Origin: an uncultured Synechococcales cyanobacterium
GTDB lineage: Bacteria; Cyanobacteriota; Cyanobacteriia; Thermosynechococcales; Thermosynechococcaceae
Length of the DNA: 56,669 nucleotides
Direction: 5' to 3'
NCBI GenBank assembly: GCA_902806435.1
Contig: CADCWO010000095.1
Span: 2,047-58,715, forward strand
Under the pieces are notes generated by a model. That model did no database searches. It worked only from the letters and a program-made list of their open reading frames with translations, and had not been told where the DNA came from. Both the position numbers and the translations under genes were made by a program. Positions 44,626-46,852 of this stretch are shown here, piece after piece. Each line of letters opens with the position of its first letter. Position 1 is the stretch's first letter.

Positions 44626-45053
44626 GGGTTTTAAGAGCCTCCTGATTGCAGCCGTGTTTAGAAAAAGTGACTGGTGGCAGGAGGAGAAGATCTAAAACCT
44701 AGTCCAAGTGTCGGAAGACAATTCTCTCAAGAATAAGCGGGTATATTTCTAGCTTACAAAATTTTCCTGGAAAGACCCTTTTTTAGAGAGGAGTTAGAGA
44801 GAACAAGATAGAAGCTGAATCTAAACAGATAACCTACCGATTTCGCACAGAGTGCGAAATTGGACAGACCTTGAGCCTGAACCTGCTTACACTTTTAACA
44901 AGGTCAAAATAGGCTCTATAGTTTCTTTGAAATATCGGTTATTCTTTGTCTGTTGCTAGCACCGTGAACCCATTGAATTGAGAGCCTGAGGTTTTTGTAA
45001 TGCTGTTCGGTTTCGGTTCTAGAACTATTCTCATAACTTAGAGGGTTATGGTT
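44626..45053. other. Divergent regulatory spacer
   Basis: This 428-bp region lies between the Crp-family gene (minus) and a small hypothetical gene (plus). Apart from the palindrome at 44840-44860 it holds no gene I can support. It is AT-rich with several possible -10 elements, and the AGAGGG just before 45046 is the ribosome site of the small gene. Confidence 0.5.
44840..44860. promoter_or_regulatory. Perfect 21-bp palindrome, candidate operator
   Basis: ATTTCGCAC (44840-44848) is mirrored exactly by GTGCGAAAT (44852-44860) across the 3-bp spacer AGA. It lies in the divergent spacer upstream of the Crp-family regulator gene. Symmetry and size fit a dimeric repressor or activator site; it does not match the cAMP-CRP (TGTGA-N6-TCACA) or NtcA (GTA-N8-TAC) consensus. 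No T-run follows, so a terminator is unlikely. Confidence 0.6.
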
Positions 45054-45353
45054 ATGCATAAAAAAGTAGTCAATTTAAGCTTGGCCACAGTTGTGAGAGA
45101 AATTGAAAGTATCCTGGCTACTTACCCTAACCATGCCTATCAACAAGCCTTTTGCGCTCCTGATTTTCGGCGACGACTCATTGCCCATGTGTTGCGTCAA
45201 GCTCGCAGACTTTACACAGTCATGATTGACGACACGCAATCAATTTCCCTAAACTCCCTCCAGCTTTCCCCGGAGAACCAACAATACATAGAAGCCTTAG
45301 TCCGCCAGGGGGTTTCTGAGGTTTTGCAAGAGAACATAGCGTGGGCGAGTTAA
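45054..45353 (+). CDS. Small conserved-looking cyanobacterial protein
   Basis: A 99-residue protein. The stretch ILATYPNHAYQQAFCAPDFRRRLIAHVL (from about residue 15) resembles the YPxHPYQxAFA-PDLRQxLIAYVL pattern I associate with a widespread cyanobacterial hypothetical family; function unknown. No membrane segment. The second ATG (45054) is chosen because AGAGGG lies 8 nt upstream; ATG 45048 would be too close. Confidence 0.65.
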   Translation: MHKKVVNLSLATVVREIESILATYPNHAYQQAFCAPDFRRRLIAHVLRQARRLYTVMIDDTQSISLNSLQLSPENQQYIEALVRQGVSEVLQENIAWAS

Positions 45354-45382: not shown

Positions 45383-46852
45383 CTATCCCCTGCCACCAAT
45401 CCCAATCAATTGACGATGATGCAAATTTCGGGCAGACTCAGTCATCGTTTTAGACAGGTTAAAGCGGATCAGTGGGTCTGCGATCAGGTGTAAAACCGTA
45501 TCTTGTTGCTGAGTGTAGTGCTGTAAGTAGTGGCTAATTGCTGCTTCTAGACCCGCAGGACTTTGCGCTAAGTTGGGGTGATCCTGGATATCTGCTGCTA
45601 AGCCTTGAGGCATTGACCAAGGTTCACGATAAACCATCGACATCAAGACTGACTCCTTAGAGAAATCGGCATCCCGTGCCTCAGGGCTTTTGGTGGGCCG
45701 CTGCATCACATGGGTCCAGCTGATCCGTAATGGGGGTTCTAGCAGCGGGCCAATAAACTGGATGTTCCGATGGCCTGCCGTAATCAACGCTTTTCCACCT
45801 GGTTTGAGAACGCGAAAAAGTGCTTGCGCTAGGGCTGGGTAGAGGCGGAGAAAGTCATGTTCCAAACCAGTTTGCGCGAAGCAAAAATCAATAGTCTCTG
45901 CCGGAATCTGCTGAACTAATGTCTGCCATTCCCCTGGGTAGTACGTTACTTTGGTTTCAACCACCCTTTGCCTAGCCTTTGCTGCTAGAACTGCGTGGCT
46001 GTGTTTTATTCGTTCATCCTCCCCAGCCAGATCTGCCTGCCGCTGCTCCGGGGCTGCGAGCGTCAAACCAGACTCTACCTCTAGTTGATGGTTTGCCTGC
46101 TGGACGTTCTTAGCTTCTCCTGTAAACAACTTTTCGGCAATCTTAGACTGGATGGTCGGCTCAAAGCGTCCCAGCCAAAGGAGTTCATTAGTATCTTCCA
46201 CAACCGGGGTAGATAAAAGCATCCCTTGAATTTCTGGTACGATACCCGCTTCCTTAAACTTGACGTTCTTTAAAGCCCACTCTGCCTCATCTTTATACTC
46301 TTGCAATAATTGCCTAATTAAGGTGCCGGGAATTTTGCGATAGCGAACGTAGGGAAAGGTATTCTCAATGGTGCTAATAATCTTGTCTGCTGCCCCATCG
46401 GGGGTACTAGGAGCAGCCACATGATAAAGGGCAGACAAGGGTAGTTTTAAGTCAATAAATTTTTCAATTTGTGCTTCAGTGAAGCGCTTGGCAATATTCA
46501 TCCAGTGTTCGGACAGGCGCTCAGTTAGGCCGTACTTGACTTCAAACTCTTCATGCACCCAGGTTGAAAATGCACCACGGATCGGAATCAATGTTTCTCG
46601 AACTTGATTGAGGCGTGTACCGATATAGTAAACGTCCTGTAGCGTTCGTTTCAGGCGTTGTTGAATTTCTCTAGTTACAGATTTGACCATGGCGCGAGTT
46701 GCTGGGTCTAAGCTGTCGTAACCACCCCAGCTCAGCTCTAATGACCTTAACTGTGTTAGTGGTGCATCAGTTTGGCTTGGCCGAGTTCTCTGTGACTGAG
46801 AAAAGCTGAGGTCTGTGATTTTACTTGTGTGGTTTTTGAGAGGTCTAGCCAT
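45383..46852 (-). CDS. DUF3102-like protein with degenerate DNA methyltransferase-like domain
   Basis: A 489-residue protein. Residues about 55-135 (RLKRTLQDVYYIGTRLNQVRETL; GLTERLSEHWMNIAKRF) resemble DUF3102, found in phage and plasmid proteins. Residues about 300-489 follow the plan of N6/N4-type DNA methyltransferases: ETIDFCFAQTGL where DPPY is expected, LFRVLKPGGKALITAGH (intact motif-like LKPGG), and VLHLIADPLIRFNLSKTMT where the SAM-binding DPFxGSGTT should be. Both key motifs are lost, so it is probably a pseudoenzyme, perhaps a DNA-binding regulator. The frame is clean over 1.47 kb, so it is maintained. ATG at 46852. Confidence 0.65.
   Translation of the reverse strand: MARPLKNHTSKITDLSFSQSQRTRPSQTDAPLTQLRSLELSWGGYDSLDPATRAMVKSVTREIQQRLKRTLQDVYYIGTRLNQVRETLIPIRGAFSTWVHEEFEVKYGLTERLSEHWMNIAKRFTEAQIEKFIDLKLPLSALYHVAAPSTPDGAADKIISTIENTFPYVRYRKIPGTLIRQLLQEYKDEAEWALKNVKFKEAGIVPEIQGMLLSTPVVEDTNELLWLGRFEPTIQSKIAEKLFTGEAKNVQQANHQLEVESGLTLAAPEQRQADLAGEDERIKHSHAVLAAKARQRVVETKVTYYPGEWQTLVQQIPAETIDFCFAQTGLEHDFLRLYPALAQALFRVLKPGGKALITAGHRNIQFIGPLLEPPLRISWTHVMQRPTKSPEARDADFSKESVLMSMVYREPWSMPQGLAADIQDHPNLAQSPAGLEAAISHYLQHYTQQQDTVLHLIADPLIRFNLSKTMTESARNLHHRQLIGIGGRG

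Follow-up and report, generated by a model that had tools for sequence, protein, structure and literature searches.

Known amino-methyltransferases require motif IV, motif I and the acid that follows strand 2. Structural dead methyltransferases are known in eukaryotes, where METTL14, the dead partner of METTL3, carries a degenerate DPPW-type motif (EPPL) and has a structural, nucleic-acid-contacting role (PMC5023411). In bacteria, intact DNA methyltransferases (MTases) of the beta class are found in phages (e.g., Pseudomonas phage Lucjan) and fused to ParB in Candidatus Chlorohelix (WP_341471958, locus L131). Chlamydial Pgp6, a member of UPF0137 (PF03677), is expected to act as a ParB (PMC11895440). 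A search of the literature returned nothing on point for ParB–MTase fusions or dead DNA methyltransferases. If true, a conserved bacterial family joining a ParB-like domain to a dead MTase would provide a tractable example of how an epigenetic enzyme becomes a regulator, and a testable function for DUF3102, a domain rarely named in the literature searched.

The window, that is, the whole stretch of 56,669 nucleotides that was analysed, belongs to a draft assembly of 4.79 Mb, whose kinship places it among the cyanobacteria as the sole member of its genus in the collection. The gene under study (45383..46852, minus strand) starts with an ATG at 46852, with a TTG 6 bases upstream, and ends with a stop at 45383. 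It encodes 489 amino acids with no internal stops, comprising a ParB-like/DUF3102-like N-terminal part and a dead beta-class MTase-like C-terminal part. This is a real reading frame. Codon preference and GC content by codon position follow the pattern of the neighbouring genes in both halves, with codon scores of 0.041 for the N-terminal part and 0.035 for the C-terminal part, compared with 0.039–0.079 for 16 genes of the window and with −0.056 and −0.075 for the two alternative frames on that strand. The setting is chromosomal, as the sequence-only reading had stated: the neighbours are a Crp-like regulator, a response regulator and tldD/pmbA-like peptidases, with polA, lpxC and fabZ further away. 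No operator-like repeats were found in the promoter region of the gene, nor was a terminator, and promoter-like sites are no commoner there than by chance. On the plus strand, at 45048–45353, lies a 101-amino-acid frame that matches ComFB weakly (E 0.028); the genome contains two paralogues of it.

Residues 44–210 (46223..46723, minus strand) form the DUF3102-like domain, a predicted all-helical DNA-binding domain. BLAST aligns the protein to proteins matching PF11300 (DUF3102) with E values of 1e-14 to 1e-18; the best relative, L009 (E 9e-18), itself scores 45.6 bits on PF11300. The window protein has no PF11300 row at E<=10 and does not reach the curated cut-off because it is too diverged, whereas its relatives do match, and the description of the N-terminus as DUF3102-like holds with the emphasis on "like". 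In an alignment of 16–57 relatives, the domain keeps the family-invariant residues Y45, I63, G78, V84, E102 and A141-Y143. Its AlphaFold model, built with 56 relatives, has a pLDDT mostly above 90. When this model was compared with known structures by VIA-align, the top eight chains were all ParB, Noc or SopB DNA-binding domains (97–111 residues), with moderate Z values of 5.5–6.5 that lie below the Z 8 caution line; the next chain, an unrelated one, follows at Z 4.8. This family alone occupies the top of the list and covers the domain, and the full model of the window protein used as a query gave matches to the N-terminal domain only. Among known folds, the DNA-binding domain found in ParB, Noc and SopB comes nearest to the predicted one, with moderate support. 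Within the ParB/Noc/SopB/KorB family, true ParBs are also fused to related MTases, dead or intact; however, the window protein has no Pfam match to the ParB_N/CTPase domain (PF02195) and its gene has no adjoining parA. Two of the DUF3102 relatives (L009 and L020) match PF03677 in their DUF3102 part (E 6e-8), which ties DUF3102 to plasmid partition proteins, although UPF0137 proteins have no MTase domain and do not match the window protein directly.

A helical linker, PTIQSKIAEKLFTGEAKNVQQANHQLEVE (residues 232–300, 45953..46159, minus strand), leads to the C-terminal part and resembles by eye the linker PALQGRVAELLSSGAAPSVREARRALERE that precedes the MTase of the Chlorohelix ParB–MTase. The beta-class MTase-like region itself covers residues 304–485 (45398..45943, minus strand), is near full length and ends just past the equivalent of the "fiGiE" strand. 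Profile alignment bears out the motifs named in the sequence-only reading. FAQTGL (residues 325–330, 45863..45880, minus strand) replaces the catalytic motif IV (DPPY), and ADPLIRFNLSKTMT (residues 458–471, 45440..45481, minus strand) replaces the SAM-binding motif I (DPFxGSGTT), while LKPGG (residues 349–353, 45794..45808, minus strand) is retained. The HHalign path runs through GEW..LVQQIPAETIDF, FAQTGL in the place of DPPY, ALFRVLKPGGKALITAGHRN, ISWTHV and AISHYLQHYTQQQDTVLHLIADPLIRFNLSKTMTESARNLHHRQLIGIG in the place of DPFxGSGTT..A..LgR.fiGiE. Besides LKPGG, the starting segment GE..IPxxxxDF survives and motif I is reduced to DP; the SAM loop with its following acid is absent from the C-terminal part in this alignment, LIGIG after ADPLIRFNLSKTMT having a G where fiGiE has the ribose-binding acid. 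The order of segments is that of the Chlorohelix ParB–MTase and of the phage beta-class enzymes, with a similar preceding linker, but those proteins keep DPPY and D(P/N)FxGSG.

The derivation of the C-terminus from an MTase that has lost its catalytic and SAM-loop motifs is supported by profile comparison. When residues 216–489 are aligned with a profile built from 16 intact beta-class N6A/N4C MTases, HHalign gives a probability of 89–92%. The global score of 42.2 stands against a mean of 3.7 (sd 2.2, maximum 11.3) for 150 shuffled sequences, and the best of 150 other reading frames, which likewise encodes DUF3102 together with a dead MTase domain, scores 18.7. This likeness, well above chance, indicates that the C-terminal part probably descends from a beta-class DNA MTase. 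As for the fold expected there, the profile alignment favours it but AlphaFold returns a pLDDT mostly below 60 for this part; no confident fold is obtained because there are no homologues, and the evidence for the fold therefore rests on the profile alignment. A frameshift or sequencing error masking intact motifs (the sequence-only reading had raised a sequence error) was rejected: the three frames of the region were read, none restores the motifs and stop codons abound in the two alternatives, so a frameshift does not explain their loss.

It is proposed, with a probability of roughly 0.55, that the window protein came from a plasmid or phage and is a DNA-binding regulator without catalytic activity, or a nucleoid/plasmid-maintenance factor. 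The DUF3102-like domain would act as a ParB/Noc-type helix-turn-helix that binds DNA at a specific site. The C-terminal domain would be a former beta-class DNA MTase inherited from a plasmid or phage fusion of ParB or DUF3102 with an MTase and, having lost motifs IV and I, would neither methylate DNA nor, probably, bind SAM. By analogy with METTL14 beside METTL3, the dead MTase may serve as a passive surface for additional DNA contacts or for dimerisation. METTL14 is likewise an MTase relative with a degenerate motif, but it belongs to eukaryotic RNA methylation and the comparison concerns mechanism, not homology. Through these two domains the protein could regulate genes or help to maintain the nucleoid or a plasmid. 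The absence of orthologues, of a ParB_N domain, of an adjoining parA and of operator-like repeats weighs against this reading, as do the moderate Z of the N-terminal domain and the failure of AlphaFold to give a fold for the C-terminal part.

The origin in mobile elements is suggested by fusions found elsewhere. DUF3102 is joined to intact (NPPF) phage-type DNA methyltransferases, of the Dam type, on two viral contigs (L125:5953-7467 and L126:5935-7107) and in the genome of a relative (L010). On Chlorohelix plasmids, a ParB is fused to an intact MTase (VDPPYN, DNFAGSGST), and a related ParB (47% identity, same subfamily) bears a dead domain on four Acaryochloris plasmid records. A scan of viral sequences with the intact ParB–MTase as the query gave no matches. 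The occurrence of these fusions on plasmids and viral contigs makes the pairing a plasmid/phage architecture, from which a move onto chromosomes is inferred. In the Acaryochloris plasmid proteins (L040:1335-2402, L041:1335-2402, L042:1248-2420 and L043:1347-2426), some of them annotated as "streptomycin biosynthesis regulator", ParB stands where DUF3102 is otherwise the partner of the dead domain.

That domain, present in the Acaryochloris proteins, defines a widespread family. The pairing of DUF3102 with a dead MTase, which had been taken as unusual, turned out to be common in cyanobacteria and often chromosomal, with a different MTase domain. When the N-terminal domain was traced further, 60 loci were found; almost all are from cyanobacteria and some are from Chloroflexi. 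A C-terminal domain of about 125 amino acids without DPPY and GSGTT is present in 47 of these 60 DUF3102 loci (L065–L124, e.g., L066:5953-6924 and L073:2464-3474), a share that is biased because the scan was seeded with members carrying this mini domain. The AlphaFold model from 46 aligned sequences (alignment A4) has a pLDDT of 90 and a pTM of 0.85. Every one of the 17 best PDB entries found with it is a beta-class N6A/N4C DNA MTase (Z 9–11.1, rmsd 2.0–2.9, 107–121 residues); macro domains come next at Z 7.7. HHalign aligns the segment FPWLPDxxMLAIAHKLER..AGDP with DPFxGSGTT...LgR..iGiE at 94% probability. G23 is conserved in 45 of the 46 sequences and an acid at the ribose-binding position 112 in all of them. 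Among pairs whose dS does not exceed about 1.1, the dN/dS ratio is 0.06–0.32, with one distant pair as the exception; the dead mini domain is therefore maintained by purifying selection. In addition, 22 of the loci adjoin a divergently transcribed Glyoxalase_3 gene, which suggests long residence. As far as these searches show, this conserved dead-MTase family is undescribed.

The window protein shares with this family a homologous N-terminal domain and the descent of its C-terminal domain from beta-class MTases. The mini domain, however, is shorter, conserved among its members and not alignable with the C-terminal part of the window protein (HHalign probability 2%), which has also lost the acid; membership in the family was rejected on that alignment. 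The window gene consequently represents a separate loss of activity, and the selection measured in the family is evidence for it by analogy only. Methyltransferase activity has been lost at least twice among the ParB-like/DUF3102 fusions.

A full-length homologue of the window gene was looked for in all 28 remaining genomes of the order, in 386 cyanobacteria sampled from the phylum and among plasmids, phages and viral contigs, and none was found; of two scans of genome contigs, neither returned a full-length relative and the second gave N-domain relatives only. The gene is a singleton. The claim that its open frame points to selection on a non-catalytic function does not follow from the frame alone and, as orthologues are absent, selection on this gene is unproven. 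Recent decay is possible. The main rival explanation, unlikely but the strongest of those weighed, starts from this point: a DUF3102–MTase gene of a mobile element would have entered the chromosome and shed its motifs through drift, its frame staying open by chance, with no function left. The singleton status in the order and in the phylum sample fits such a remnant, as do the truncation of the C-terminus just beyond motif I, the two DUF3102 paralogues of the same genome interrupted by stops, and the flanking synteny, which differs upstream of tldD in each genus of the order, with no copy of the gene beside tldD in relatives. Nevertheless, the frame is open over 1.47 kb and codon preference is normal in either half, as the sequence-only reading had partly noted, and the N-terminal domain retains its family-invariant residues. 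Moreover, for motifs to be replaced and insertions to be gained, the gene must have diverged for a long time while acquiring neither a stop nor a frameshift.

The same genome contains nine further DUF3102 genes on small contigs, four of them members of the mini-domain family and several near sigma-70 factors. These genes and the Noc chains among the top fold matches speak for an accessory role in trans, in which the window protein would be a Noc-like or KorB-like repressor for silencing or partition of resident plasmids or other DUF3102 loci. This explanation has a small chance of being correct: no direct connection of the window gene to those loci was found, and the C-terminal parts of the window protein and the mini-domain loci are different domains. 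At six of the loci in this genome (L151–L156, on contigs C17, C26, C177, C274, C258 and C20), DUF3102 forms a repeating module, perhaps plasmid-derived, with sigma-70 family factors and a protein of about 230 amino acids without a Pfam family (MQIENKVQEIATTT...). The interrupted DUF3102 paralogue matches (G000:C17:8870-9253, L005, and G000:C177:3851-4279, L008) are broken by in-frame stops, TAG and TAA.

It is improbable that the C-terminal part is unrelated to MTases and owes its likeness to chance around LKPGG, a motif common to many proteins. Curated libraries match it weakly (Pfam Methyltransf_11 at E 0.0011, under the cut-off, and PADLOC mad2 at E 0.0011), the weak Pfam and PHROG matches are centred on the LKPGG region, and AlphaFold yields no fold; but the alignment spans 167–198 columns and has the motifs in beta-class order (IV, LKPGG, then I), and shuffled sequences and other frames score far lower. 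A living divergent MTase or other SAM-binding protein, with motifs shifted or altered past recognition, is very improbable, since LKPGG, GEW..IPxxxxDF and LIGIG suggest a surviving scaffold but motif IV is fully replaced, only DP is left of motif I, the acid after strand 2 is a G and [DNS]PP[YFW] is absent from residues 304–489.

The regulator or maintenance factor proposed for the window may belong to a wider pattern. Tentatively, cyanobacterial ParB-type proteins would have repeatedly co-opted a DNA MTase domain as a non-enzymatic module that DUF3102 and ParB partners have exchanged. Two separate cases would be the window protein and the mini-domain family, as chromosome- or plasmid-organising regulators. 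The acid retained throughout the family would be compatible with the sensing of a cofactor or nucleotide. Taken alone, the window gene is a curiosity, and the conserved dead-MTase family is the stronger and more valuable object. Three of the 60 loci come from metagenome-assembled genomes of other named groups, "Tatlockia" (L122) and "Candidatus Gracilibacteria" (L108 and L124). Their genes are near-copies of cyanobacterial ones (dS 0.11 for L122 versus L089 and 0.26 for L108 versus L111), and these are probably mis-binned cyanobacterial contigs.
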